From a virus, in the IMG/VR virus record IMGVR_UViG_3300027782_000034, positions 1 to 64,000 of that record: a stretch of 64,000 nt of DNA; one strand, written 5' to 3'. The translations under genes were made by a program, and so were the position numbers. This document shows, one piece after another, positions 17,718 through 62,622 of this stretch; the first letter of the stretch is position 1; every line of letters starts with the position of its first letter. Below the pieces are notes generated by a model. It made no database searches. It was not told where the DNA came from and saw only the letters and a list, made by a program, of their open reading frames with translations.

Positions 17718-18455
17718 TTATCTCGCAAGGAAAGGGGATAATTTTTGTTCTTGATCCAGCAATTGCTGTATCTTAGTTTTACGCTGGGTAATCGCACCTG
17801 GGCTGCGATTAAGCTTAGCTGCAATCTCTTGATTCGATAGTTTTTTATTTCCACGCATTCCCAAAGTCAGTTCCATGACACGCTGGTCTAAAGGACTAAG
17901 TCCTTGGTAAACCACTTCGCCCCATAGATCTGCGCTGGCTTGTTGGTTAGGAATTACACTTGGAGCACCGCCCGCTAATGGGTCAATTGCATCTAGTCTT
18001 CCTGTGTTAACTCCGGGTTGATAACTCCGAATCTTTGCAAGTCGAGGCATAGCTATCCCTAATTTATCTGACAGTTCTGCGTCAGTAGGCTCTCGACCAA
18101 GCTCATCTGACAGTTCTTGTGTGGATCCATGTAACCTTTGATTCTCTAGTAATATGCGTTCGGGTACGCTTATTACTTGATGTTGCTGTTGGTTGATCCT
18201 ACGCAGCCCTTGCATTTGGTTTAATAAATGAGACTGTAACCGAGACCGCTTAGGATCGTACTTACGCACTGCGTCCAATGTTAAAAGCTTGGCACGGCTA
18301 GAAGTTAATGGGCTATCTGCCCCATACATCTTGACCCCCTTTTGTACTATTGGATCAAGTGCTTTCAGTAAGGCAGCGTTGCCTTCTGGTGTTTGATTCT
18401 GCTGCCAGCTTTGAAATGCTGGTTTATATTCGTCTTCTAAATAATCGTCCATCAT
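17718..18455 (-). CDS. Sigma-70-family-like transcription initiation factor
   Basis: 245 residues. Region 2 is visible at residues ~30-90 (KALDPIVQKG, then AVRKYDPKRSR matching the classic FDP-x-R-G element). Region 3 follows at ~97-143 with ISVPERI and ELGREPTDAELSDKLG, and region 4 at ~184-233 with LSPLDQRVMEL and a helix-turn-helix, NQEIAAKLNRSPGAITQRKTKI. Order and spacing are those of group 2/3 sigma factors. The aromatic residues of region 2.3 used for promoter melting in sigma-70 (F, Y, W, W) are replaced by L, H, N and Q at ~73-80. Start is ATG-ATG with AAGGAG upstream. Its likely partner is the phage RNA polymerase encoded at 52788-62622; the host enzyme is the alternative. Confidence 0.8.
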   Translation of the reverse strand: MMDDYLEDEYKPAFQSWQQNQTPEGNAALLKALDPIVQKGVKMYGADSPLTSSRAKLLTLDAVRKYDPKRSRLQSHLLNQMQGLRRINQQQHQVISVPERILLENQRLHGSTQELSDELGREPTDAELSDKLGIAMPRLAKIRSYQPGVNTGRLDAIDPLAGGAPSVIPNQQASADLWGEVVYQGLSPLDQRVMELTLGMRGNKKLSNQEIAAKLNRSPGAITQRKTKIQQLLDQEQKLSPFLAR

Positions 18456-40459: not shown

Positions 40460-41407
40460 TTAGGTAAAGTCAACCCTAGCAAGACCAGAGGTATGACCAA
40501 TGGTGCCACCTAAGGTTTCATAAGCAAAGAATTCAATGAAGTAAGCTTCACGACGGATGTACATCGTGGTGTCTTCAATGAGGTAGCTCTTGCCGATAAA
40601 TTTAGGGTCAGCGAAATGATACATCGTACCAGTTGGGACAAGTCCCTTCTTAATAGTGATGATCCACTGAACACCCATAAATTCGCTGTAGGTCCAACCA
40701 TTACGCATAATCTCTTCACTAAGATCGCCACCCATATCATTACGATTGAGTTTGGCAACTTCTTTGATAGTGATGTTATTAAGCAAAACGGAATGAACTT
40801 CAAGATTAGAAGGAGTGCCTGGCATAATCTTAAAGCTGTCCCACAGGTTGCTGCGGGTTACCCCACCGCTAAGCTGCTTGTACTGGATTACTCCAGAAGT
40901 AGGAACAGTTGTTCCTGCGCCAACAAGAGCAGTGTTGACCGCAGAAATAAATTTGCCATCTTCTTCCGCTAACATATCCTTTATGGCATTATCGGATAGG
41001 ATTTGTCTTATATCCATATGCCATGTACGAAGTTCATCCACATCCTTCGTGAATTTAGGGGTCACGATGCGGTCAAAGGTAACTCGGTACCTATCACCAC
41101 GGATGTACAAGTTGGTAGGAAGCGTGGCAAAAGGAATCGAGATTGCTGCTGGAGAATCTGGTTCTTTGTCCACGATCTTTACAGGTTTGTCGGTATCGAC
41201 TTGACGATCAAGATCATCATTGCTAAGTGGGATTGGTGGCATAATACGTCTGTAAAAGCCATCTTCACGCATCTTGGTCCTAGTGAAGTCGTTGACAGCG
41301 TCAACAGCTTGCTTTTCTAGGTTAGAGTCACGGGAAGCCAATTTTTCAAAAATCGTTTGACTAAGAAGTTTGCTTTCTTCTTGAGTCATGATACTAGAAT
41401 TAGCCAT
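40460..41407 (-). CDS. Major capsid protein (putative)
   Basis: 315 residues. It has an N-terminal helical ~60 residues, a long charged strand region (YIRGDRYRVTFDRIVTPKF resembling an E-loop or P-domain strand) and an alpha/beta rest, consistent with an HK97-fold shell protein. It has the strongest ribosome binding site seen (AACAAGGAGG) and a following hairpin, as expected for the most abundant protein, and lies after protease, scaffold and decoration genes. HK97 fold is inferred, not shown. Confidence 0.7.
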   Translation of the reverse strand: MANSSIMTQEESKLLSQTIFEKLASRDSNLEKQAVDAVNDFTRTKMREDGFYRRIMPPIPLSNDDLDRQVDTDKPVKIVDKEPDSPAAISIPFATLPTNLYIRGDRYRVTFDRIVTPKFTKDVDELRTWHMDIRQILSDNAIKDMLAEEDGKFISAVNTALVGAGTTVPTSGVIQYKQLSGGVTRSNLWDSFKIMPGTPSNLEVHSVLLNNITIKEVAKLNRNDMGGDLSEEIMRNGWTYSEFMGVQWIITIKKGLVPTGTMYHFADPKFIGKSYLIEDTTMYIRREAYFIEFFAYETLGGTIGHTSGLARVDFT

Positions 41408-49942: not shown

Positions 49943-52474
49943 TTAGTTCCTTGAAACTTCGTCTAAGTTAATGTCACCTTTATCAAATGATGACTCAATA
50001 GTCTTCTCTTTCAAGAAGAGTGTAATATCACCAAGAGCTTCAAAAGCATTGCGCAAACTATCTTCTAACTCTGGAAGATCACTTTTGCCATATCTATCTT
50101 CAAATTCTTCTTGATGCCAGTAGAAATTCATTAACAACCGGCCTAGCGAATCCAAGGCTGCCATTAAGTCGCCCAAGTGGCGATCTACTAGTGAATCTTG
50201 TCTTACTGTTTTTAACATACCTGCCATCATTGAAACATCAAATACTTCTTTCTGCCCATCTTTGCCAGCAGTTTGAGCAGATTGCAGATTTTGTTGAAAA
50301 TCTTTAGCTTCAAAGTTCTGCCAGTTGTCCCACTTAGACCTATTTGTGTTCTTACCGCTCATTGAAGGGATAGGCGAGTTTTTCTCGGTAGAATATCGAG
50401 TTAGGGCAGAGGTGCTTGGGCCATAGGTTTCACTGCCACGATCCCCAGAAGTATCCGTATCAAGGGGGAAGGATGGGCCTCCAGCTAACACGCTGGTATT
50501 AGGCTCAGCTTGTTTCTCGGTCCCATAACCAGCAGCATAAAGCACACGATAAATTGCATGACCTTTTTTCTCTGCTTGTTGCAGCATATCCACGGCAACT
50601 TTTTCACGAAGTCCATGTGTGTCTACCAAGCGGCATAGTGCTGCTTTTTTGCTTAATTGAACGGCACCGATTACAGAGTCTAGGTACACATCAGTTCCGT
50701 TATTAAATATCTTGAGCCTAGCTGTCTTTTCAACTAATAAGCGTTTGATGTCAGCTAAGCCACCTAACTTAATAGGATTTGATTCATCGTCAAAAGGTGA
50801 ACAGCCACACCCGCCAAAGATGCTGGAAGAAGAACCATCCGACAATTTGATGAACTTGAAAGAAGCTGGCACACGAAGTTGTCCGGAGACAGGTCTAAGT
50901 CTAAGGCCGCTCTTATCTTCTTTGCCAATGATTAGAGTAGCCCCATAATTACTATTACTATTGAAAGAACTTATTAGATTAGCACCTGCTGCCATGCCCC
51001 GCCTAGAAGGAGCATACCGATCTTGTATCTTAGGCATCAGCTCGCTACGTGAAGCTGAATAATCTTTATTCGTGCGAAAATCTACTTTGTACTCACCATC
51101 ACCCATGTCCGTAGTTACACGGAAAGGAGCAGTAGCTGAACGACTGTAGTTTATAGCAATATATTCTGCATCCTCGTCCAAGTCTGTATCAGAGGATAAG
51201 CCATCAAACCAATCTTTCCACTCGTCTTTGTCAGAAACTTGTGTAGCAAAAACTGACGTGCTGTCGGCATTTAACCAGCTTTTGTTAGCCCCATCCTTTT
51301 TATCTATCCGTACAACTGTGGTCATGGACTCTGCTCCACGACTGCTGATACCATTCAAGACCACCAACATTTTACTAAATTCACCAGAGCTCTCTAAAAC
51401 AGAATACAATTCAGTTTCAGAGGGGTTGGTGAGGCTAATATCATTTTCAGTGGTGTAAAGCTTACTTACTTCTGTATCTTCTCTACGATCTTTGATGACT
51501 ACTTTGCCTTGTAATAACCTTTCTCGATCTAGGGTGTTTAGCTCATCTTTATTAGTTACCACAGAAGCTGACATATAGACTTCTAACTTACCTTCCTTAA
51601 TGTGGTCGGTAATAGGAAGTGGCTGGGATAGTGAGCTTAGCAAGGTGTTGGGCACAAGTGTGACAGTAGTAGGCGTAGGAAGAATGCTGCTAGCCTGCTT
51701 GATTGTGTTACTTCGAAGTTCTTTAGCCCAGCGTGAAAAACAATCCACACCATAGAAGTCACTAGTAGCTTTTTTAATGGTGGGATAGCGTTCTGCTAAG
51801 TCGTAAGCTGCTTCAAGTAATGCCAAGCTTTTAGGCAGCACTTGGTTAAAATCCAGATTTGAAGCTGTCTTGGTTAATGCTGCTGTGAATGGCACTCGAA
51901 CAACTGCCTTTTGATCCAGCTTACGGCTGCCGGCACCACGGTACAAAGAGCCCGCAAGTTTTACTTTGAAGGCCGCTAGCATAGGTAGAACGGGCTGTAA
52001 CCACTGGGAATCACTTGCGTGCTTGTGGCCTTGGGGAGAAATAGATAAAGAATTGATATCAGGAGCGATTCCTCCTAACTCTTGTAATTTACCTACGGAA
52101 GACTCCCCTAAAATATGAGGTTTTCGACTCATAAGATAGTTGATCCAGTTTTCCTTCATAGGAACAAACGAATCATTATTTTTTATGTAGAGTAACTCGT
52201 GTCCTTTTAAATCACCATTTAAGAAAAATACAGGAGCGTACAACCATTGCTTGCCGACTTGAAAACCAAAGACACCAATAGCTTTAGTGTTATCTTCATT
52301 TCGATCAATTAGCTGGAAGCCTAACATGTAATCAAGGAGGCGGGGTGCCTTATCTTTTAAATAAGCATAAGCCAAGCTAGAGAAAGCTTGTTCAAATTCA
52401 GTTTCTCCTCCCTTACCGCCGATACTAGCATTCTTCAATAAATTATTTTGTCTAGGCATTTCCATGAGCAACAT
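49943..52474 (-). CDS. Large hypothetical virion protein
   Basis: 843 residues, mixed helix and strand without a membrane segment. A CGCSPF pair occurs near residue 555. The C-terminal 120 residues are helical and acidic. It does not show the recognisable features of a portal or terminase, though a diverged portal cannot be excluded on size and location upstream of the prohead protease. Strong linkage to its neighbours (16- and 3-base spacers) supports a morphogenesis role. Confidence 0.45.
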   Translation of the reverse strand: MLLMEMPRQNNLLKNASIGGKGGETEFEQAFSSLAYAYLKDKAPRLLDYMLGFQLIDRNEDNTKAIGVFGFQVGKQWLYAPVFFLNGDLKGHELLYIKNNDSFVPMKENWINYLMSRKPHILGESSVGKLQELGGIAPDINSLSISPQGHKHASDSQWLQPVLPMLAAFKVKLAGSLYRGAGSRKLDQKAVVRVPFTAALTKTASNLDFNQVLPKSLALLEAAYDLAERYPTIKKATSDFYGVDCFSRWAKELRSNTIKQASSILPTPTTVTLVPNTLLSSLSQPLPITDHIKEGKLEVYMSASVVTNKDELNTLDRERLLQGKVVIKDRREDTEVSKLYTTENDISLTNPSETELYSVLESSGEFSKMLVVLNGISSRGAESMTTVVRIDKKDGANKSWLNADSTSVFATQVSDKDEWKDWFDGLSSDTDLDEDAEYIAINYSRSATAPFRVTTDMGDGEYKVDFRTNKDYSASRSELMPKIQDRYAPSRRGMAAGANLISSFNSNSNYGATLIIGKEDKSGLRLRPVSGQLRVPASFKFIKLSDGSSSSIFGGCGCSPFDDESNPIKLGGLADIKRLLVEKTARLKIFNNGTDVYLDSVIGAVQLSKKAALCRLVDTHGLREKVAVDMLQQAEKKGHAIYRVLYAAGYGTEKQAEPNTSVLAGGPSFPLDTDTSGDRGSETYGPSTSALTRYSTEKNSPIPSMSGKNTNRSKWDNWQNFEAKDFQQNLQSAQTAGKDGQKEVFDVSMMAGMLKTVRQDSLVDRHLGDLMAALDSLGRLLMNFYWHQEEFEDRYGKSDLPELEDSLRNAFEALGDITLFLKEKTIESSFDKGDINLDEVSRN

Positions 52475-52787: not shown

Positions 52788-55700
52788 TTATTTAGAACTT
52801 TCTGCCCATCCTCGGTACTCAGCAAGGTCCTCGTTATTAGTTTTCAATTGGGCTTCTAGCTTTGCCCTTTGTTCAGGAGGAAGAGAAGTATCTCGAAGCT
52901 GTGCAGTAACTGCCACAATGTTTTCTTTAAGACCGCTAACCCGATTGCGTATATCCTTGCTGAATAATCCCTTACCCGAGGAACCGCTTTCTCGGTCATA
53001 AGTACCCAGCATTGCCTTACGCTGCGCCTGTCTATTTAATAACTGCTCCTGCCGTGCTTGACCTACTGCATCTAATTCACCTTTAGCTTTTAAATCTGCT
53101 AGCTCTGTGTCCGTAGCTGCAACCGAATTTTGCATGGCATCTCGGAATTTGTGTCCGCCACTCCCAAACCAATTCTGCTGACCTAATCTCCACTTAGCTG
53201 TTTCGTCTGCCGTATTTTCTTGTCTAGTTTTAGCGTCTCCTATTTGTGCATCGATGCCAGCTTGCTCTTGTTTATTTTGTTCTATCATGGAGGGAGCCAT
53301 GATATTTGTATTTTGCGACTCTTGCTGAAGCTTAGCTTTTTGTGCTTCTAAATCTTTTTGCTTTGCTACTTCCATTGCGTTAACTTTTGATTTGTCCACA
53401 ACCGATGCACGAGAAATAGCATCAGTTCCAGTTACTTTATCTCGAATAGCTTCAGCACCTATCCCAGCTTGCTCCCCAATCATCTGTGCAGTCTGAGTTG
53501 TACCGCCTGCTATTAGCTGTGCGTTAGCCACTGGGTTTAAAATTTGAACAGGAGCTTGCCACAATGTGTGCAACCCATCTTTACCTGAAGCAATGTTTCT
53601 TATATTTTGTGCTGCGTCGTTAGTTGTGTTATCCCAACCCTTATTGTAAACATCGTAACCGACACTCCCAGTTTCTAAAGCTATTCCAATACCAGGGGCT
53701 GCTTTAGCCAATGTTTTGTAAGTCGTGGAAACTGCTGGCATTACTTTACTAAGTAAACCTCCGGGTGCAGCTGGTATTGGTGCAGCTGGCATTGGTGCTT
53801 TGGGTATTGGTGCTTTGGGTATCGGTGGAGTAGGGGTAATAGGTGCTGGAGCTGTAGGTAGCGGTGCTTTAGGCACTAGTGCAGTAGGCGCAGGGGGAGT
53901 AGGTAATGCCTTAGGCGGTACGATTGTATTTTTTATAGCGGTATAGGCCGCCGGTGCATGATCTACAGCTGTAAATATATCTGGACCAGCTTTTGATGTA
54001 GCCTCTGCAGGAACTGCTTCTGCTGAAGATGCGGGTGCAGATTCCGCAGATGTGTTACTACTCAACATCCCGCCTTGATTTGTAGCTGAGTTGTAATCTC
54101 CACTGGGCATAATTGATTGCCCATTTTGATTGTTATTCCCAAACATATTAAACAAATTACCAAACATTCCACCGCCACTACCGCTTGTGGCTAATCGCTG
54201 CGAAGGCCCAGAGTTAAATAACTGAGACATGTTATTACTACCCCCTGCCATGCCTCCTAGCATCATAAGTGCACTTGTAGGATCTGCTCCGTTTAACATC
54301 TGACCAGTTTGCTGTGCAAAAGTATCGTTTTGCATCAAGTTACTAAATTGGTTTGAACTTGGGGTAGTCGGTGCAGTTTTGGGGGCTGGAGTAGGAGAAG
54401 GCATAATGTTTGTATTAAGAGGCTTAGAAACTGGTGACATACTGGTTACAGCAGGTGGCTTAGAGACAGAAGGTGGCTTAGACACAGAAGGTGTGCTATC
54501 TAATCCTAGCTTAGTTTGCCCAGGGGTAAAACGCCCGCCAAAAAAAGGAGCACTGCTAGGAGCTGTAGGCTTTGCCGCAGCAGGAGTAGAAGGAATAGGG
54601 GGAGGAAGTGGAGGTAATGCCGGTAGCTCATAACTAGGCTGAGGTTTTATTACCGCATGGTTTTTACCTTCTCCAAAATCAAGACCCATTGCTAAGCTTG
54701 GAACAAAGCTTGTACCTCGTTCTTCGCTGATAGCCCCATGAGTCACAGAGTCTAAGAAGCTTTTCTTTAGACCAGACCCATACATTTGTGTCATCCAATC
54801 GGGATCATGTTGCATTTGATACAACCCACGAACCATGTTTGGTTCAAATGGCGGTGGGTTCTTATGCACTGGAATTTCATTAATTTCAAAATCTTCAAAA
54901 TTCTTAAGCATAGAAGGTCGAATCTTGGTCCCAATAGTGTAGTGCAGTACAGGGCGCTCTAGATACTGTCCTAATGCACGCTTAGGAGTTAACCGCTGGT
55001 GGTCTTCTCGTGGCTTGTATGTGTGTTCAAGCGTAGAGTAAGGAACAACATCGTCAGGCACATGGTCATCTGTTTCTTCTGTCAGCCTTACATGGTTGAT
55101 AAGACCTCGGGCTAACACCTCAATATTACGTCTGTGCCCAAACATTCCGCTGTCACCCATCGCCTTGCGGAACTCATTAACAAAATACCGCCTACCCTCT
55201 CCAATTCCTTTATGTTCGGTAATAGTTGCTGGGTTAGGAATTCCTGAACTAATTACATCACCAGCCTCTACCTCATCTCCTTTTTTTACTTTAAGCTCAA
55301 ACCCAGCCCCTACATAATGTTGTTTATCCCCAATGGTGACATAGCTCCCGCCCGCAGGGGCTTCTTCAATACGCTGCACCACTCCATCCATTAACGAGTG
55401 GGCTGCCCCTCCTTGCATTTTCTTAGGAACTTGTACTAATTGGTTTAAATACTGAAAACCGCTAACAGCTTTTTCTTGTCCGGCCACGCCCCCCGAATGC
55501 TTTGCAGATAACTGACCTTGGCTAATCGGTTCACTTAAAGCGTGGGCAGCCTGTAACCCAACTTGCTCGCCAAGCCCAGGCAGCTTTCCAGTTTCTCTAA
55601 TACCTACATCTCTAGAATAAACACCGCCATCGGGAGACCCGCCCACTAGGGCAGATCTCACTAAGATTTTAGGTGTACCAAGCCGTTTTAAATGATTCAG

Positions 55701-56507
55701 TATTTTTGGAGTAAGTGGAGTATTTCTAGCGTAAGGACCAACATTACGAGCTAGCAATGCCCCTTCATTGTCTGGATCATCAGTATCCACCACTAATCCA
55801 CGGATAGGTGCGTCGTCTGCCTCTTCGGCATCTTCTCCGGTGACTACCAATCTATGACTAGTTTGATTAAGTTGTTTGTTAAAGAATCCAGCATCTTGTG
55901 TGGCAAACTTAGTTGCCATAATGCCTTTGCGTGCTCCGTAGGTTCCAGCCCAGTACTCGGCAGGAGACAGCCCCTCGCTGTAACTTCGCAGCACAGGAAT
56001 TGGAATTACATCGTCACGCTGGTCCGAATACAGCATGTCTGAACCTAACAAACTAGTTAGATTCATAGACTTACCACGGGTACCCGACATAACCTGCATA
56101 CCGAGAGGGTTCTTGTCTTTTAACGCTTCTGCAAGTATTTGTTTTTGCTGTTCTGGACTTTCCTTGCCAACTGCACGAATAATCTGCTCGTTTCGCTCTT
56201 GGTCTGTCAAAGAATCGTCAGCTAGGATATTAGTAAGAGAAGCTCTAACCTTCTGGCGGGAAGCTATTGCAGATTTACTTACTTGCATGTGACGAAGCCC
56301 AAACGACATACCACCCTGCTCTTGTGCTATACTTTGACCAAGATTACTTAGCTTAAAAGATATATCTCGGTAATTCTCTGGGTGCTGCCGCGCCACTTGC
56401 TGTAGTAAAGATTGCAACCCTTTTTTGTCTAGCACACGATGGGAGTCTCTCAACTCTTCCGGAAGGACATCATTAATTAACAGTTGTCCAACGGTCGTAT
56501 TCAACAT
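52788..56507 (-). CDS. RNA polymerase beta' subunit, C-terminal half, with long extension
   Basis: 1239 residues. Residues 1-625 align by eye with bacterial beta' from just after the active-site domain to its end: NTTVGQLLINDV (TTxGRxxxN), a secondary-channel region with GMQVMSGTRGK, GLSPAEYWAGTYGARKG, the bridge/trigger region GEQVGLQAAHALSEPISQGQ with His337 in the trigger loop, and KKGDEVEAGDVIS and YFVNEFRKAM near the end. The four Cys of the bacterial second zinc site are absent. Residues ~625-1239 are foreign to RpoC: a Pro/Ala/Ser-rich linker, Met/Gly/Asn-rich stretch, then helical Gln/Lys-rich sequence of virion-protein style. Works with the product of 58156-62622 as one core enzyme. 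Confidence 0.93.
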   Translation of the reverse strand: MLNTTVGQLLINDVLPEELRDSHRVLDKKGLQSLLQQVARQHPENYRDISFKLSNLGQSIAQEQGGMSFGLRHMQVSKSAIASRQKVRASLTNILADDSLTDQERNEQIIRAVGKESPEQQKQILAEALKDKNPLGMQVMSGTRGKSMNLTSLLGSDMLYSDQRDDVIPIPVLRSYSEGLSPAEYWAGTYGARKGIMATKFATQDAGFFNKQLNQTSHRLVVTGEDAEEADDAPIRGLVVDTDDPDNEGALLARNVGPYARNTPLTPKILNHLKRLGTPKILVRSALVGGSPDGGVYSRDVGIRETGKLPGLGEQVGLQAAHALSEPISQGQLSAKHSGGVAGQEKAVSGFQYLNQLVQVPKKMQGGAAHSLMDGVVQRIEEAPAGGSYVTIGDKQHYVGAGFELKVKKGDEVEAGDVISSGIPNPATITEHKGIGEGRRYFVNEFRKAMGDSGMFGHRRNIEVLARGLINHVRLTEETDDHVPDDVVPYSTLEHTYKPREDHQRLTPKRALGQYLERPVLHYTIGTKIRPSMLKNFEDFEINEIPVHKNPPPFEPNMVRGLYQMQHDPDWMTQMYGSGLKKSFLDSVTHGAISEERGTSFVPSLAMGLDFGEGKNHAVIKPQPSYELPALPPLPPPIPSTPAAAKPTAPSSAPFFGGRFTPGQTKLGLDSTPSVSKPPSVSKPPAVTSMSPVSKPLNTNIMPSPTPAPKTAPTTPSSNQFSNLMQNDTFAQQTGQMLNGADPTSALMMLGGMAGGSNNMSQLFNSGPSQRLATSGSGGGMFGNLFNMFGNNNQNGQSIMPSGDYNSATNQGGMLSSNTSAESAPASSAEAVPAEATSKAGPDIFTAVDHAPAAYTAIKNTIVPPKALPTPPAPTALVPKAPLPTAPAPITPTPPIPKAPIPKAPMPAAPIPAAPGGLLSKVMPAVSTTYKTLAKAAPGIGIALETGSVGYDVYNKGWDNTTNDAAQNIRNIASGKDGLHTLWQAPVQILNPVANAQLIAGGTTQTAQMIGEQAGIGAEAIRDKVTGTDAISRASVVDKSKVNAMEVAKQKDLEAQKAKLQQESQNTNIMAPSMIEQNKQEQAGIDAQIGDAKTRQENTADETAKWRLGQQNWFGSGGHKFRDAMQNSVAATDTELADLKAKGELDAVGQARQEQLLNRQAQRKAMLGTYDRESGSSGKGLFSKDIRNRVSGLKENIVAVTAQLRDTSLPPEQRAKLEAQLKTNNEDLAEYRGWAESSK

Positions 56508-56548
56508 GGATAGTTCTCAGAGTGTGCAAATTATTTAAAATCTGGATT

Positions 56549-57121
56549 TTAGTCGTCACTATCGTCACCACCAAAGGCAGCTTCGATATCTTTAAGAGTA
56601 ATTTCCTCACTCTTGCCACGCTTTGCTTTTTTACGAGATGGCTTAGGAGCCTCGTTTAAAACAGCAGTCGCCTCTGGCATATCTACAATAGGTAGAGCTA
56701 CTTCTTCTGGGCTAAGAATAGCTTCTGGGGCTAAGACAACAAAAACTATAGAGTCTGTTTGCTCTCGTGTTAATTCTCCACGACCCACTGACATGTCTAC
56801 AGCAACTTGCAGTTGAGTCACTACATAGTCATAGGCTTTAACTATGATGCGGGTGGCTCCGTCTTCAAATGCAGCTTGTATGGTAGCTAGGCCATAGCAA
56901 CCATCAAGTATCTCCAATTCTACTTCTTTCGGAGGCATCTGAAGCTTAGCAATAAGAGGGACATCTTCTGCAACAAGTGGTCCCATCTCGGCATAATACT
57001 TATTGTTAGAAGAGTTTATACTAGAGGATTGTTGATAAGTAGGAGTAGGAACAATCTCGGGAATAACCTCTGGTTTTCGGTCTCGGTAGTAGTAGTCAGA
57101 AGATCGTAAAGAAGAGTCCAT
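56549..57121 (-). CDS. Hypothetical protein between RNA polymerase genes
   Basis: 190 residues. The first ~45 are Tyr/Ser/Pro-rich; the middle forms a small helical domain (ILDGCYGLATIQAAFEDGAT), and the end is basic then acidic (SRKKAKRGKSEEI ... GGDDSDD). No family recognised. One-base spacing from its upstream neighbour indicates an operon with the two polymerase genes. An accessory polymerase subunit is possible but not supported by motif. Confidence 0.45.
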   Translation of the reverse strand: MDSSLRSSDYYYRDRKPEVIPEIVPTPTYQQSSSINSSNNKYYAEMGPLVAEDVPLIAKLQMPPKEVELEILDGCYGLATIQAAFEDGATRIIVKAYDYVVTQLQVAVDMSVGRGELTREQTDSIVFVVLAPEAILSPEEVALPIVDMPEATAVLNEAPKPSRKKAKRGKSEEITLKDIEAAFGGDDSDD

Positions 57122-57122
57122 A

Positions 57123-57347
57123 TTACACCTGTACTTTAGTAGAAATAACGGTTTCGTTGATACCTAGTTTACGCAAATTATCATTGAAATTAGCATCTTC
57201 ACAATGAGATACCATCACACTAGTAGCACTTCCAAAAAGTGCAGCTACACTTACTGGAGTACCATCTTGCATTCGAACTACAACCTGCGAAGCAGGTATC
57301 CTAAGTGGAGGCTTACCAATACTTTCAATAACCTCCACGATGAACAT
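57123..57347 (-). CDS. Small hypothetical protein between RNA polymerase genes
   Basis: 74 residues, beta-rich N-terminus (MFIVEVIESIGKPPLRIPAS) and short helical end. No motif. One base separates it from the next gene. It is in the size range of small RNA polymerase subunits, though no similarity to omega, delta or epsilon is seen. Confidence 0.45.
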   Translation of the reverse strand: MFIVEVIESIGKPPLRIPASQVVVRMQDGTPVSVAALFGSATSVMVSHCEDANFNDNLRKLGINETVISTKVQV

Positions 57348-57360
57348 ACGCTGAACCCCT

Positions 57361-58083
57361 TTACTTGTTATTATTACGCATTAAAAGAGCAGTAGCCATT
57401 GCAGCTACACTGCCATTTTTATTAGAAGGCTGCTGAGGATAGTAGTCAGCTGATAAACTAAAAGCTGTGCCACTTTCCCACGCTTCAGCAGCCTTGATCG
57501 GAGAAATAGGGGCAATCTGCCCAAGACCGCCACCCGACTTACCATCGGGAGTAGCTGCTGCCAAGCCTGGTCCACCTTGTGCAATCTGGTTTAAATCTTC
57601 GGGTGTTACCACCATATCAGACACAGGCACATGGATACCAAGAGCATCAATAATTTTAGCAAGCATCTTTTTAATTTGTACAATTTCAACATTTATGTCA
57701 ATTTTAGGTTTAAGCCCAGGGCCCGCACCTTGCGGTTGCCCACCACCATTAGCCGACATTGCTTGTTGTACTGCCTGTTGAACCATTGGCATAATTGCTG
57801 CCATTGGGTCCATAGGGGGAGGAGGTGGAGCACCACCACCCATAGAAGGATCCATAGGAGGAGCACCACCGCCCATAGAAGGATCCATAGGAGGAGCACC
57901 ACCCATTGAAGGGTCAGGAGGTGGAGCACCGCCACCCATGGAAGGATCCATAGGAGGAGCACCGCCAGAAGGCATAGGAGCACCCATAGCTGGGTCACCT
58001 GCTGCAACAAATGCATATTTAGATAGATGGCGTTTTCCTACATGTTGTCGGGCCATCTTTAACAATTCCAAATTAACTGCCAT
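57361..58083 (-). CDS. Repeat-rich Gly/Pro/Met protein between RNA polymerase genes
   Basis: I choose the ATG at 58083; the ATG at 58089 lies only 1 base from AAGGAG, too close to be used. The product is 240 residues. Residues ~35-90 are tandem GGAPPMDPSMG units (about five) at bases ~57800-57985. A helical segment follows and then DINVEIVQIKKMLAKIIDAL, a short coiled-coil-like helix. Disordered repeats of this sort suggest a flexible virion or assembly protein. It separates the beta/beta'N and beta'C genes. Confidence 0.5.
   Translation of the reverse strand: MAVNLELLKMARQHVGKRHLSKYAFVAAGDPAMGAPMPSGGAPPMDPSMGGGAPPPDPSMGGAPPMDPSMGGGAPPMDPSMGGGAPPPPPMDPMAAIMPMVQQAVQQAMSANGGGQPQGAGPGLKPKIDINVEIVQIKKMLAKIIDALGIHVPVSDMVVTPEDLNQIAQGGPGLAAATPDGKSGGGLGQIAPISPIKAAEAWESGTAFSLSADYYPQQPSNKNGSVAAMATALLMRNNNK
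57800..57985 (-). repeat. 33-base repeats encoding GGAPPMDPSMG
   Basis: About five imperfect units with conserved GGAGGAGCACC / GGATCC cores on the plus strand, in frame in the protein at 57361-58083. Similar GGGAPPE units occur in the scaffold-like protein at 42541-43740. Confidence 0.8.
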
Positions 58084-58155
58084 AAACATACTCCTTGTGT
58101 GATCTCATCTTATGATTCTAAGTTCTAATCAAAATCTAGGATAGAGATATATTGC

Positions 58156-61100
58156 CTACCCATTTAAAATTCGTACCGGATCGTTGATTGAAATATCTCC
58201 GCGCGCATGTGCTCGCCTTACATCTTGTATGTTCTGAAAAATCCGTACTGGTCGATCAGATTTACGAGAAGGATCTGTACCCATAAACAAACCCCCAATG
58301 TATTCATTAGCAGGGGCATGCATAACAGATTTCATATCCCCTATGCTAAAAAGATTACGACTAGGTAACAAACGATCAAAAGCCTCTTGCCTAGCTTTTT
58401 CCGTACTTGGCACATGATAGTTCATGGTGTCGCCATCAAAGTCAGCACCAAACCCTTTTACAATTAAAGGGCTCACTTGTAAGGTATTTCCTTTAGTCAA
58501 TCTTGGTCTCATTGCCATAATCCCAAACTTATGCAAAACAGGAGCACGACTAATATATACAGGACGATGCTCCATCTCTTCAAGCAAGAACTTGCGTGCT
58601 ACTGGAGTCTTATCTTCTAATTGAGTACGAGCCTGTAGCATAGACATGCCTTGTCGCACCAATCTTCTAGTAACAAATTTCTCATAGACCTTAAATGCCT
58701 TGTCTTCGGGTAGCCCTACCGAGTCCATGTCCAATTCCGGATTTGGAGTAATTACCGCTCGGCCCACATTGTCTACTGTAGAAGAAATCAGTTTACGTTG
58801 CACAATCCCAAACTTAGGACTTGCACCAAACACATTTTTTAAAGCCCCACGAACATTCTTCTCTTGGCTTTTTGCACTAATCGGATCTCCTAGACCAGTC
58901 ACCGCTTTAAATGCTTGATAGGTGGAAAGACGCTCCGATCCCGAAGCCTCTTCCCCTACTTCTTGCTGCATTTTGCTAAAATTCTGATTAGCCTCAAACA
59001 GTTCTTTGTAAAGGTGATTAGCATCGTTAACCAATGGCATGCCGTTGCTCATCAAGCTAACTGGACGAAACATTGGGGGAAGAACTGGAACTTTGGTCAG
59101 CATGTAGTCTGCAGGCTGCAAATTAAGTTTCTGTGCCGATTTAAAATAACCAAGTTTACGAATTGCCTCATCCCGCTGAGCCCCTCTACCCGCCGCAATA
59201 ATAGCCCGAGCTTTAGGAATTTCTGCAGCAGGATTAAGATCTGCTAATGCTTTTTGTAACGCTTTCGTACCGGTTCCATATTTCTCTAAAAATTCTGTGC
59301 CAGCCACAATACCTTCAAACTTTTTCTGTGTTAGCCCAAGCATATGACGGATAGGTTCTTCCATTACTGGGTTAGGTAAAGGTTCGTGCAAACGCATAAA
59401 CGACCATCGAGTGCCACCATGCCCGCCGGTCTTAGCCTTGTCAAACAAGCCACCATTAATCTCTTTAAGCTGGTTGCCCCACTCCACTCCATCGGCACTG
59501 CTAAGCTCACGATCCCCAGCTAAGTTATCGATATCCTTGTCCGTTAATGCCATAATCTGAGTCTGCGTTCCCTGCTTGACTACATTAACACCAGCAGATT
59601 GTAACTGGGCTACAAACTTCTGATAAGCAAAAGGAACCTTAGTAACTTTAGGGTTATACCCCGACATGTACTGCATCCAATACTGATCATTCTTCTGCCT
59701 TCTAACTGTGAAGATATCTTGCAGTGTGTCCGTGGCTCCGTGAGATAGCAAGGCATTAGCATCCATTAGCCCAATACGCTTAGAACCTTCAATGCCACCT
59801 TTGGCTGGGGCATCTTCCATCGTGTAAGCACCACCGCTCCTACCTTGTCCTTTAGACTCAGAAGTATGATGTAGCTTCATAAAGAAACGACTACCAGTTG
59901 CTATATTTTTAATTTTTTGTTCTTTAGATGGGTCTATAATGTCTTCTAAGTCCGACAAACCTTCTTTAGCCAGTTCTTGCATGACCCATTGAGTCATATC
60001 TTTTTTAGTATCAAAATCATCTACTTTAATCGGCATACCACGCTTAGCCGCTATTTTACCTAGAAACAATTCAGACATTTGAGCAGGGTTAGTTCGACTA
60101 ATAATACCAAGAGGGTTAAGCAGCACTTCAAAAGGTAACTTATTTGAATCGTGTGGCATTTCGCTATCTGGAATAATGTCCGCAATAACACCTTTGTCCC
60201 CATAACGACCAGATAACTTATCACCAACTTGCGTTGGAGATTCTGCTTTAACTACAACGACCGGACCCTTCTTACCCATCACCACATCAGTAACAACACC
60301 AGTATCGTGATGCTGCCAAAGTACGGCTGCATCGTTGAACCCGGCTTGACCCTTCTTATGTACCTTGTTGTATGCATTTTCCTTTTGTGTAATCCCTAGT
60401 ACCAAAGGATCTCCAAAATTAACTACTGTGCCTGGTTTGATCACTCCTTGATCATCTATGTTCGCTAATATGTCTTTCTTGAATGTAGCTGGAAATGCTT
60501 GAATAAATTGTCTTTTACCAACTTGTGTTTTGTCATCCACTTCCAGCTCATGCTGATACATATGAGAAGAGGCTGTCTTCTTTGCAAAACTTTCTGAGAT
60601 GACAATTGCATCTTCAAAGTTCTTACCCTGCCATGGGATATAAGCGGTACGTGCATTTGTACCTAAAGCCATTGTTCCTGTCTTGTTTGTAAAGTTAGAA
60701 CTTGCTAACAACTGGTTTGGCTTAAATGTGTCGCCAGGTTGAACTGCAGCGGTTTGATGAAAAAAGGTTTTACGATTAAAAGGAAAGTTGTGATAAAGTT
60801 CGTGCGTTTCCTCGGTTCCATCTTCATTCCGCACTTTAATCTCTTCATCTGTCACGGAGGTAACTGTGCCCCCTTGGGAAGCTCTTAAAGCTCCCATCCC
60901 AGCCGAGTATAGCTCTTCATAACTTTGTTTGCCACCTGTGCGGGGAACCGCTGACTGTACTAAAGGAGCTTCGGGAGAAGCTAAAGGTAATGCTTGTGTA
61001 GTCATACGAGATGCCATAACTAATCGCTGACCCTTTACCTGACTCTTCATAGGGATAACATTGGAAAGAGGATTAAATGCTTCTTCCATGTCAGGAAGCT

Positions 61101-62622
61101 CTAAATCAATGCTTGATTTAGGTACATGTAACATCTTACCGCCACGCATCGCCACTACACGGCCATCTTCGCCTTCTTGGCTTCCGGGAAAACCGACAGT
61201 TAGGTCTGCTACATCTTGAGGAGTTTTAAAAGTCATTTCCCCGTTACGCATATCCTTAAACTGAGCATAGAGCTTACCATCACTTCCCTTACGAGATCCC
61301 CTAGCCAGATAAGTGTCCACCCCAACACGACCCGACTCGGGAGTACGCACAGGATCGACATAACCCAGCATACTTGACTGTACATTTCTGGATTCCATGG
61401 GAATTGCATCCATAGAACCAATACCACCCTCACCTACTCGAGTAACAGACATTGTCTTTTCATAAATGTCTGTAGGATTAATTTCTTCAATAGCTTGTCC
61501 CAGCCCGCTGCCAAGCAAAGCACTTTTCACCTGTTTGTCTAAAGCAGAAGATGGCATTGAGTTTAAATCACCTTTGCCCGACATCTTCCAAAGTAGGTTA
61601 CGTCGTACCCCGCCTTTATCTCGGGCAATACGCTCTGAAAACAAATCTTCTGGACCTACAAATTGCTGAAAGTGAAGTGCATCTCTGTCATCCGGATCCG
61701 CTTCTTTCCTATTAACCTTTATCAGCTTTTTAGTAATGTCCATCAATGTGTCTAGTGTGACACCTGAATGTGGGTTTCCCAGCGTGCGACGATTTACCTC
61801 GGGATCCATTTCCATCTTAGAAAACTTAGCAAGCAATGCTTGTTTTTGTTTTTCTTCTGGCTCAGCTAGTTCTTTAGAAGAAAGAAACATGCCTTTAAGC
61901 CGTGTGTATTCGGATGCATCATCCGAATTGTAATTAGAAGCGAATAGATCTTTACCCCAAGCTTCCTGCGCCTGCTCCGAGGTAACTCCCATAGCTTTTA
62001 ACAAAGGAGTTAATCCAACTGAAGCTTGCCCAACCTTAAGCTTAAATTTGCCTTTCTCGGGATCTAAGAAATAACGCTGTGATACACCTTTCCCAGGCAT
62101 CACATTAACATGGGATTCAATTTCACCATTGTTCCGTGTGCGGGTGTAAACTCCGGGCAATAACCGCTGTTGATTTCTTAGAATGTACTCAGTGCCGTTG
62201 TTGATAAAGGTGCCACGATCCGTCAAGTGAGGCACAGTGGCAAGAACTGATTTCTTAGAAGCGATTACTTGTTGTGTTGCGTTATCCATTAACTCCCAAG
62301 TACCTTCTAGCCTACGTCCTTGGGATCTACCATTAAGAATGGCAGCTTTCTGCTCCTGTTTGCTAGCGGTATCACCATCACGGTAATTTACTCCAGTTAA
62401 ACTAAGCGTATGCCGATCATTAGCCATAGGCTGTAGCTGCTGAGCTGCTTGCAGCACTCTATCGTAGATAATAGATCTGACCTTCTTAGTGTCATGAAAT
62501 TCATGAAAGCTAGGCAATGGAGTTGCGGGTGGCAATGGCTGCATCGGCTGTGCTAAAGGAGGTGTATTCCCTAGCAACGAGAGATTAGAAGAATCAAACA
62601 AATTAGATGAAAGTGGAAGCAT
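58156..62622 (-). CDS. RNA polymerase beta subunit fused to N-terminal half of beta'
   Basis: 1488 residues. Residues ~100-1000 are a full beta subunit: GTFINNGTEYILRNQQRLLP (protrusion/lobe start), SMLGYVDPVRTPES, TAYIPWQGKNFEDAIVISE (661-677), QVGDKLSGRYGDKGV (798-812), LNPLGIISRTNPAQ (835-848) and the C-terminal clamp-side GSKRIGLMDANALLSHGATDT. Residues ~1040-1488 are beta' N-terminal: GGLFDKAKTGGHGG where the zinc ribbon should be, PVLPPMFRPVSL, clamp helices DANHLYKELFEANQNF, PEDKAFKVYEKF, RPVYISRAPVLHKFGIMA and the catalytic GADFDGDTM (Asp at 1394, 1396 and 1398). The four zinc-ribbon Cys are missing. It ends at DPVRILNG, just before beta' residues continued by the gene at 52788-56507. 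Synthesises RNA from DNA; alpha and omega genes are not in this window. Confidence 0.95.
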   Translation of the reverse strand: MLPLSSNLFDSSNLSLLGNTPPLAQPMQPLPPATPLPSFHEFHDTKKVRSIIYDRVLQAAQQLQPMANDRHTLSLTGVNYRDGDTASKQEQKAAILNGRSQGRRLEGTWELMDNATQQVIASKKSVLATVPHLTDRGTFINNGTEYILRNQQRLLPGVYTRTRNNGEIESHVNVMPGKGVSQRYFLDPEKGKFKLKVGQASVGLTPLLKAMGVTSEQAQEAWGKDLFASNYNSDDASEYTRLKGMFLSSKELAEPEEKQKQALLAKFSKMEMDPEVNRRTLGNPHSGVTLDTLMDITKKLIKVNRKEADPDDRDALHFQQFVGPEDLFSERIARDKGGVRRNLLWKMSGKGDLNSMPSSALDKQVKSALLGSGLGQAIEEINPTDIYEKTMSVTRVGEGGIGSMDAIPMESRNVQSSMLGYVDPVRTPESGRVGVDTYLARGSRKGSDGKLYAQFKDMRNGEMTFKTPQDVADLTVGFPGSQEGEDGRVVAMRGGKMLHVPKSSIDLELPDMEEAFNPLSNVIPMKSQVKGQRLVMASRMTTQALPLASPEAPLVQSAVPRTGGKQSYEELYSAGMGALRASQGGTVTSVTDEEIKVRNEDGTEETHELYHNFPFNRKTFFHQTAAVQPGDTFKPNQLLASSNFTNKTGTMALGTNARTAYIPWQGKNFEDAIVISESFAKKTASSHMYQHELEVDDKTQVGKRQFIQAFPATFKKDILANIDDQGVIKPGTVVNFGDPLVLGITQKENAYNKVHKKGQAGFNDAAVLWQHHDTGVVTDVVMGKKGPVVVVKAESPTQVGDKLSGRYGDKGVIADIIPDSEMPHDSNKLPFEVLLNPLGIISRTNPAQMSELFLGKIAAKRGMPIKVDDFDTKKDMTQWVMQELAKEGLSDLEDIIDPSKEQKIKNIATGSRFFMKLHHTSESKGQGRSGGAYTMEDAPAKGGIEGSKRIGLMDANALLSHGATDTLQDIFTVRRQKNDQYWMQYMSGYNPKVTKVPFAYQKFVAQLQSAGVNVVKQGTQTQIMALTDKDIDNLAGDRELSSADGVEWGNQLKEINGGLFDKAKTGGHGGTRWSFMRLHEPLPNPVMEEPIRHMLGLTQKKFEGIVAGTEFLEKYGTGTKALQKALADLNPAAEIPKARAIIAAGRGAQRDEAIRKLGYFKSAQKLNLQPADYMLTKVPVLPPMFRPVSLMSNGMPLVNDANHLYKELFEANQNFSKMQQEVGEEASGSERLSTYQAFKAVTGLGDPISAKSQEKNVRGALKNVFGASPKFGIVQRKLISSTVDNVGRAVITPNPELDMDSVGLPEDKAFKVYEKFVTRRLVRQGMSMLQARTQLEDKTPVARKFLLEEMEHRPVYISRAPVLHKFGIMAMRPRLTKGNTLQVSPLIVKGFGADFDGDTMNYHVPSTEKARQEAFDRLLPSRNLFSIGDMKSVMHAPANEYIGGLFMGTDPSRKSDRPVRIFQNIQDVRRAHARGDISINDPVRILNG

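Follow-up and report, generated by a model that had tools for sequence, protein, structure and literature searches.

Multisubunit-type RNA polymerases carried by phages have been described in several arrangements. In the phiKZ/AR9-type enzymes of jumbo phages, beta and beta' are each split and two polymerases are encoded per genome. Bacterial beta-beta' fusions (NCBIfam PRK09603, PRK14844) join the beta C terminus head to tail to the N terminus of a full beta', while cyanobacteria and plastids cut beta' into gamma and beta' in the linker after the catalytic barrel and keep beta separate. YonO, crAss gp66 and P23-45 are single-chain phage polymerases, and P23-45 gp96 is a virion enzyme. The multi-subunit-RNAP-encoding Caudovirales, or mReC (Weinheimer and Aylward 2020, PMC7481178), encode a tailed-phage RNA polymerase that can be aligned with bacterial beta and beta' and forms its own clade outside bacteria. 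Lastly, the cultured Salmonella phage Arash (OQ632216; PMC10585845) encodes gp206 and gp216, which its authors call beta and beta' without mentioning a fusion. We asked how a polymerase locus in an uncultured large phage compares with these systems. The window that we analyzed is a 64,000-nucleotide stretch, positions 1 to 64,000 of IMG/VR record IMGVR_UViG_3300027782_000034, and its relevant features are as follows.

58156..62622 (-), ORF-A, 1488 aa, whole beta subunit fused to the beta' N-terminal half
59581..62622 (-), beta part of ORF-A, about residues 1-1014
60187..60228 (-), beta double-psi barrel motif VGDKLSGRYGDKGV, residues 799-812, with K802 and K810 equivalent to E. coli K1065 and K1073
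58159..59475 (-), beta' N-terminal part of ORF-A, about residues 1050-1488, N-terminal zinc ribbon absent
58429..58449 (-), catalytic GADFDGD, residues 1392-1398
57361..58089 (-), ORF between A and B, 242 aa, Pro/Gly/Met-rich, unknown, no PHROG match
57123..57347 (-), ORF between A and B, 74 aa, unknown
56549..57121 (-), ORF between A and B, 190 aa, unknown, no PHROG match
52788..56507 (-), ORF-B, 1239 aa, beta' C-terminal half plus a lineage-specific tail
54669..56507 (-), beta'C core of ORF-B, residues 1-613
55857..55964 (-), predicted bridge helix, residues 182-217
55452..55571 (-), trigger loop region, residues 313-352, with H337 equivalent to E. coli H936
52788..54668 (-), 620-aa C-terminal tail of ORF-B, a low-confidence linker (residues 614-1017) followed by predicted helices from about residue 1030
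49943..52474 (-), 843-aa protein related to Arash virion protein gp218, next to ORF-B
40460..41407 (-), major capsid protein candidate, 315 aa

The initial annotation held that a whole beta subunit is fused to the catalytic half of beta' and that the rest of beta' is a separate protein. We confirmed this observation, and both ORFs exist at the stated coordinates and lengths. In a Pfam search, ORF-A hit Rpb2_6 (1.4e-50), Rpb1_2 (1.2e-23) and Rpb2_3 above their curated cut-offs and Rpb1_1 and Rpb2_7 below cut-off, and ORF-B hit Rpb1_5 (1.2e-18) above cut-off. The NCBIfam beta model PRK00405 matched ORF-A residues 268-1014, and TIGR02013 matched in three stretches. For beta', the rpoC model TIGR02386 matched ORF-A 1113-1485 at model positions 158-533 and ORF-B 2-495 at positions 548-1066 of 1147. 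Thus, beta' is complete and colinear across the split, with only a 14-position gap. No Cys cluster that could form the N-terminal zinc ribbon was found in the sequence. The three Asp residues of GADFDGD (D1394, D1396, D1398), K802, K810 and the trigger-loop H337 were invariant in 79 of 79 sequences. An AlphaFold model of ORF-A residues 360-1488 had a mean pLDDT of 83.6 and a pTM of 0.70, and its best PDB matches were bacterial beta; the best matches of the ORF-B model were bacterial beta'. In the ORF-B model the bridge helix, which we aligned with E. coli beta' by motif, is one 36-residue helix. However, the 1239-residue protein is a polymerase part only to about residue 613: the core is mostly above pLDDT 70, while residues 614-1017 are below 50. 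The remainder is a P/A-rich linker and a helical end with no convincing Pfam domain. We found no homologue of this tail outside close relatives; it is absent in Arash and nearly so in locus L007.

We next asked whether the layout was an artifact or was peculiar to this phage. Three ORFs lie between A and B, and we found the same layout in 105 distinct loci, with 8 more carrying an extra break; an assembly or frameshift artifact was therefore rejected. The 105 loci include cultured phage Arash and Vibrio phages D69, D148 and D181. The same pipeline gave beta | beta' in 57 of 57 complete cellular loci, which rules out an artifact of our own profiles. A scan of 84,980 genomes for a cellular origin of the layout returned ordinary bacterial rpoB | rpoC among its 80 best hits. 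In addition, 77 viral loci encode beta and the whole of beta' as one open frame of about 2,030-2,320 aa without inteins, and 5 are three-part. None of the phages of this group has beta | beta'. At the junction, ORF-A of the window ends ...INDPVRILNG* and ORF-B begins MLNTTVGQLLIN, where the single-chain locus L143 reads YNDLVKFNGKVSTVGRHLVN.

To determine the order of these events, we built trees rooted on bacteria. The two-part enzymes nest inside the single-chain ones. The clade of two- and three-part enzymes had an SH-aLRT support of 100 and a FastTree support of 1.0, as did all phages minus the group of phage loci around L313 (100 and 1.0), with values read from unrooted branches. Monophyly of the single chains was rejected (AU p = 4.6e-5), and the tree required 3 layout changes. 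However, the root lies on a long bacterial branch, so long-branch attraction of the L313 group cannot be excluded, and FastTree did not recover loci L143/L311/L162 as sister of the two-part clade. The layout therefore looks derived, by one fusion and then one cut at a new place, with a few relatives cut again.

We then turned to where the enzyme might act. Published virion proteomics of Arash (PMC10585845) found the fused protein gp206 to be the most detected protein (3516 spectra), with its beta'C partner gp216 at 1210. Per residue these are 2.31 and 2.00, against 1.51 for portal and 4.34 for capsid. The polymerase genes sit among virion genes: a profile search placed the relative of Arash gp218 (1149 spectra) next to ORF-B, and a profile built from Arash gp226 found the capsid candidate, which also matched the PHROG major head protein at 2.8e-4. 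The genome holds only one RNA polymerase, with a single Rpb1_2 locus. No match to the alpha profile PF01000 was found in the 172,719-base record, which may be incomplete, while the controls were detected in 13 of 14 cases. Searches for sigma factors in this genome gave no sigma region 2, two subthreshold region-4-like hits and no match to an Arash sigma; none passed the cut-off, which leaves promoter recognition unexplained.

Taken together, we consider it likely that ORF-A and ORF-B form the catalytic core of a bacterial-type two-barrel RNA polymerase that would work without alpha or omega subunits. In this view, beta and beta' were first fused into one chain, and the gene was later cut after the beta' catalytic barrel, which moved the subunit border from beta | beta' to (beta + beta'N) | beta'C. 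Both catalytic barrels would therefore sit in one polypeptide, while the bridge helix and trigger loop would come from the second chain and have to join it to make a working active site, an arrangement that we infer from models of the separate chains. The enzyme would be packaged in the virion, enter the host with the DNA and transcribe early genes. Our own analysis establishes the homology, the full domain coverage, the conserved catalytic residues, the survey of layouts and the nesting in the tree, and the presence of the Arash homologues in purified virions is taken from the Arash study; enzymatic activity, which has been shown for no member, injection, early transcription and the assumption that this uncultured phage behaves like Arash are all inferred. 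The interpretation in the initial annotation was partly supported. It was right that this is a phage multisubunit-type polymerase closer to bacterial than to phiKZ-type enzymes, with beta fused to half of beta'. However, the layout, which it knew from no characterized enzyme, is not unique to this phage but the rule in a large group with cultured members, and it looks derived from single-chain phage polymerases.

An alternative is that the enzyme is made after infection to transcribe middle or late genes and that its presence in Arash particles is carry-over. The Arash authors allow for this, as their sample held 116 proteins, including ribonucleotide reductase. The window genome encodes a single RNA polymerase, and here the nearest large gene upstream of ORF-A is a ribonucleotide reductase, not portal. 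However, gp206 gave more spectra than the capsid protein, and both chains occur at similar counts per residue. In Arash and many relatives the genes lie between portal and other virion genes, whereas the YerA41/Carin-5 polymerases lie beside replication genes. We therefore regard this alternative as unlikely, though it is the strongest of those considered. It is also conceivable that the two-part form is older and that single chains arose by rejoining A and B, perhaps more than once, since splits after the beta' barrel also occur in jumbo phages and cyanobacteria (PMC7598289). This did not fit well with the paraphyly of the single chains on the tree rooted on bacteria, and it would still need a beta-beta' fusion before the base of the tree; we consider it doubtful. 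Inheritance of the split from a cyanobacterial host enzyme is very unlikely. The cut falls in the same linker region and ORF-A also hits the cyanobacterial gamma model (1.3e-42), but the general rpoC model scores better than the cyanobacterial ones, ORF-B residues 1-22 lie upstream of the cyanobacterial beta' start and beta is fused here, although no cyanobacteria were in our tree. Finally, a degenerate polymerase kept only as an internal virion protein, as its abundance in Arash particles and the loss of the zinc-2 cysteines in the window's clade might suggest, is least likely of all, since a dead enzyme would not keep every tested catalytic residue invariant in every phage sequence.

The border between beta and beta' is among the most conserved features of cellular transcription. 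A natural lineage in which it was erased and then redrawn elsewhere shows that it is not a mechanical necessity, and it gives a series (two chains, one chain, two differently cut chains, three chains) for testing assembly without alpha, which the cultured phages Arash and Vibrio D69 make possible now. If the virion role holds, these would be bacterial-like polymerases delivered into cells by a phage particle. In the papers that we consulted, we found no description of the fusion, the single-chain group or the second cut. The broadest reading, which we judge only slightly more likely than not, is that a large tailed-phage lineage carries its whole catalytic core as one virion-borne polypeptide of more than 2,000 residues, fused from bacterial-type beta and beta', that one branch cut it again so that the active site is shared differently between chains, and that the published mReC beta and beta' would in fact be this single chain. 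This bears on the claim that phage polymerases of this kind branch next to bacteria, because published surveys that score beta and beta' separately could have missed the fusion.

The initial annotation had raised possible membership in a reported deep-branching polymerase group. The mReC paper speaks of beta and beta' subunits without mentioning a fusion and requires NADxDGD. The GADFDGD of this phage fails that filter, and all 78 single-chain ORFs would pass its motif and length filters. The mReC lineage may be the single-chain group, unrecognized; this remains a hypothesis. The window polymerase falls outside bacteria in our tree, which included no mReC sequences, and contigs of metagenomes 3300017989 and 3300000786 did not appear among our hits. 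A search for PF07068, the capsid protein family of mReC, gave no match in the genome, where the controls were silent too, and none in the capsid candidate; only 8 of 97 mReC contigs had a detected capsid gene.

Among the systems compared, Arash and Vibrio phages D69, D148 and D181 share the two-part layout, cut at the same place and lying among virion genes. ORF-A is about 30% identical to its Arash counterpart, and Arash gp216 lacks the 620-aa tail and keeps the zinc-2 cysteines. The phiKZ/AR9-type enzymes are likewise two-barrel phage enzymes without alpha or omega, with beta' cut after the catalytic barrel, but their beta is also split whereas here it is whole in ORF-A, they occur as two polymerases per genome rather than one, they are far more diverged from bacterial enzymes and they have no beta-beta' fusion. 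The bacterial fusions share the head-to-tail junction but hold a full beta' in the same chain, while ORF-A stops after the barrel, at rpoC model position 533 of 1147; the single-chain phage relatives, whose beta' is complete, match this bacterial layout. The cyanobacterial and plastid cut lies in the same general linker region, but by NCBIfam models it is about 20 residues further downstream, as the rpoC2_cyan model begins at ORF-B residue 23. YonO, crAss gp66 and P23-45 also hold both barrels in one chain, but they are highly diverged minimal enzymes in another major clade (PMC10770324), whereas the window enzyme aligns with bacterial beta and beta' over most of its length.

The initial annotation proposed that two open reading frames in the window encode an RNA polymerase divided in an unusual way, with beta fused to half of beta' and the rest of beta' separate. 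We first asked whether both frames hold the expected domains. Both ORFs are present where the initial annotation placed them, and this observation is confirmed. Pfam profiles identified Rpb2_6, Rpb2_3, and Rpb1_2 in ORF-A (beta joined to the N-terminal half of beta') and Rpb1_5 in ORF-B (the rest of beta'), all above their cut-offs. When compared with solved structures, ORF-A matched bacterial beta (1.5e-67) and, in its last 375 residues, beta' or cyanobacterial gamma, while ORF-B matched bacterial beta' (2.2e-35, residues 2-494). The bacterial rpoC model is covered from 158 to 533 by ORF-A and from 548 to 1066 by ORF-B. Thus, beta' is complete apart from its N-terminal part, where the zinc ribbon is missing, and its cut is clean.

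We next examined whether the enzyme is likely to be functional. The three catalytic Asp, the two barrel Lys, an Arg of the RAP motif, and the trigger-loop His are the same in 79 of 79 sequences, which comprised 62 phage polymerases of this group, YerA41 and Carin-5, and 15 bacteria. From this conservation, the enzyme looks active, although activity is inferred from sequence and predicted structure alone. The zinc-2 cysteines are kept in Arash and most single-chain relatives but are lost in the window's clade. AlphaFold gave a good model of ORF-A residues 360-1488 (pLDDT 83.6, pTM 0.70), whose best structural matches are bacterial beta (E about 1e-49). Jumbo-phage polymerases scored far lower in the viral structure library. 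The model of ORF-B has a confident core to about residue 613, a low-confidence stretch at residues 614-1017, and then helices. Its best matches are bacterial beta'. The C-terminal tail of ORF-B is specific to close relatives.

This led us to ask whether the layout was peculiar to this phage. A tblastn search of phage records found the same two-part arrangement in Salmonella phage Arash (gp206, 1525 aa; gp216, 606 aa) and in Vibrio phages D69, D148, and D181. In the same records, Listeria, Staphylococcus, and Enterococcus "phage" entries in INPHARED, such as OR846602, OR844998, and OR847295, carry what look like ordinary host RNA polymerase genes, probably through host DNA contamination. Alignment-based scans of IMG/VR gave hundreds of relatives. 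We sorted their ORFs with four profiles of our own and obtained 105 distinct two-part loci, 8 more with an extra break, and 5 three-part loci. In the three-part loci (L152, L155, L157, L163, and L168 in our locus numbering), the beta' barrel is a separate protein of about 385 aa, cut just after the start of beta'. The same profiles gave the ordinary beta|beta' layout in 57 of 57 complete cellular loci. At loci L221 (Rhizobium phage RHph_TM30) and L222 and L223 (Vibrio phages 1.031.O and Va2), one ORF of 1128-1304 aa matched both halves of beta', with no beta match within about 10 kb; beta may be elsewhere or very diverged.

One odd locus, L143, encodes a single ORF of 2,613 aa, with a 514-aa insert carrying LAGLIDADG-like motifs in its catalytic motif. 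Following this locus led us to the related loci L311 and L310/L313. A scan seeded with these returned 79 loci of 358 relatives, nearly all with beta and the whole of beta' in one ORF of about 2,030-2,320 aa. In all, we counted 77 distinct single-chain loci. Pfam profiles confirmed both subunits in one chain. At the position of the cut, single-chain L143 reads YNDLVKFNGKVSTVGRHLVN, and the window reads INDPVRILNG stop / MLNTTVGQLLIN. The cut removes nothing.

Inserts were also observed in other polymerase genes. In the fused or single-chain genes of L059, L062, L067, L069, L071, L103, L114, L116, L120, L129, L144, L143, and L311, in-frame inserts of about 330-520 aa sit in conserved motifs (after RTPE, after VGDKL, and in or after the DFDGD motif). 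Many start with Cys and end in Asn before Ser/Thr, and we consider them candidate inteins, with several per gene in L114 and L116. The fused gene is broken by inserts in L003 (Vibrio phage D181), L075, L076, L072, and L169. In D181, an annotated homing endonuclease lies in the gene, and these breaks are possible introns. Separately, at G000:C1:122046-125555 (contig C1 of genome G000, locus L013), a family A DNA polymerase carries an N-terminal uracil-DNA-glycosylase-family domain in the same ORF.

To determine the order of events, we built trees from concatenated beta, beta'N, and beta'C. The two- and three-part enzymes form one clade (SH-aLRT 100; FastTree 1.0) nested inside the single-chain enzymes. 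The single-chain group around L313 lies on the bacterial side of a fully supported branch. Forcing all single-chain enzymes into one clade cost 137 log-likelihood units (AU p = 4.6e-5), and the layouts need only three changes. The simplest reading is that beta|beta' became one chain, then (beta+beta'N)|beta'C, and then three parts, with the caveat that the bacterial branch is long.

We then asked whether published data bear on where the enzyme acts. In purified Arash virions, gp206 is reported as the most detected protein (3516 spectra), with 1210 spectra for gp216, 877 for portal, and 1333 for the capsid protein (PMC10585845). Per residue, we calculated 2.31, 2.00, 1.51, and 4.34, respectively. 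These values are consistent with a 1:1 complex present in quantity, but spectral counts are only a rough measure. The authors called the two genes beta and beta', did not remark on the fusion, and allowed that enzymes might be carry-over. In Arash and in many single- and two-part relatives the gene follows portal, and a gp218-like virion protein follows beta'C, also in the window. By contrast, the polymerases of YerA41 and Carin-5 are unfused and lie with replication genes. In the window's own genome, the nearest large upstream gene is a ribonucleotide reductase. Packaging of the window's enzyme is inferred by analogy with Arash.

We also searched for factors that could direct promoter recognition. 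We found no sigma region 2 and no alpha in the 172,719-base IMG/VR virus record, of which the window is the first 64,000 bases and which may be incomplete. Only two sub-threshold matches to sigma-70 region 4 were found, at G000:C1:73325-73456 and window 17772-17903, minus strand (1.4e-4 and 2.3e-4). These are possible minimal initiation factors. Arash virions hold a sigma factor, gp10 (PMC10585845).

Our literature search, which did not extend to most subscription papers, found no description of this fusion, of the single-chain group, or of the re-cut. The study that defined mReC screened for beta and beta' hits of at least 800 aa with NADxDGD and does not mention a fusion in mReC (PMC7481178). 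All 78 single-chain ORFs meet these motif and length filters, while the GADFDGD of the window does not. Thus, mReC may well be the single-chain group, but its contigs were not among our hits and this stays an inference. Taken together, our results support the initial interpretation in part and extend it. The enzyme of the window belongs to a known kind, the phage-encoded RNA polymerases of bacterial type, and has an unusual and testable history.
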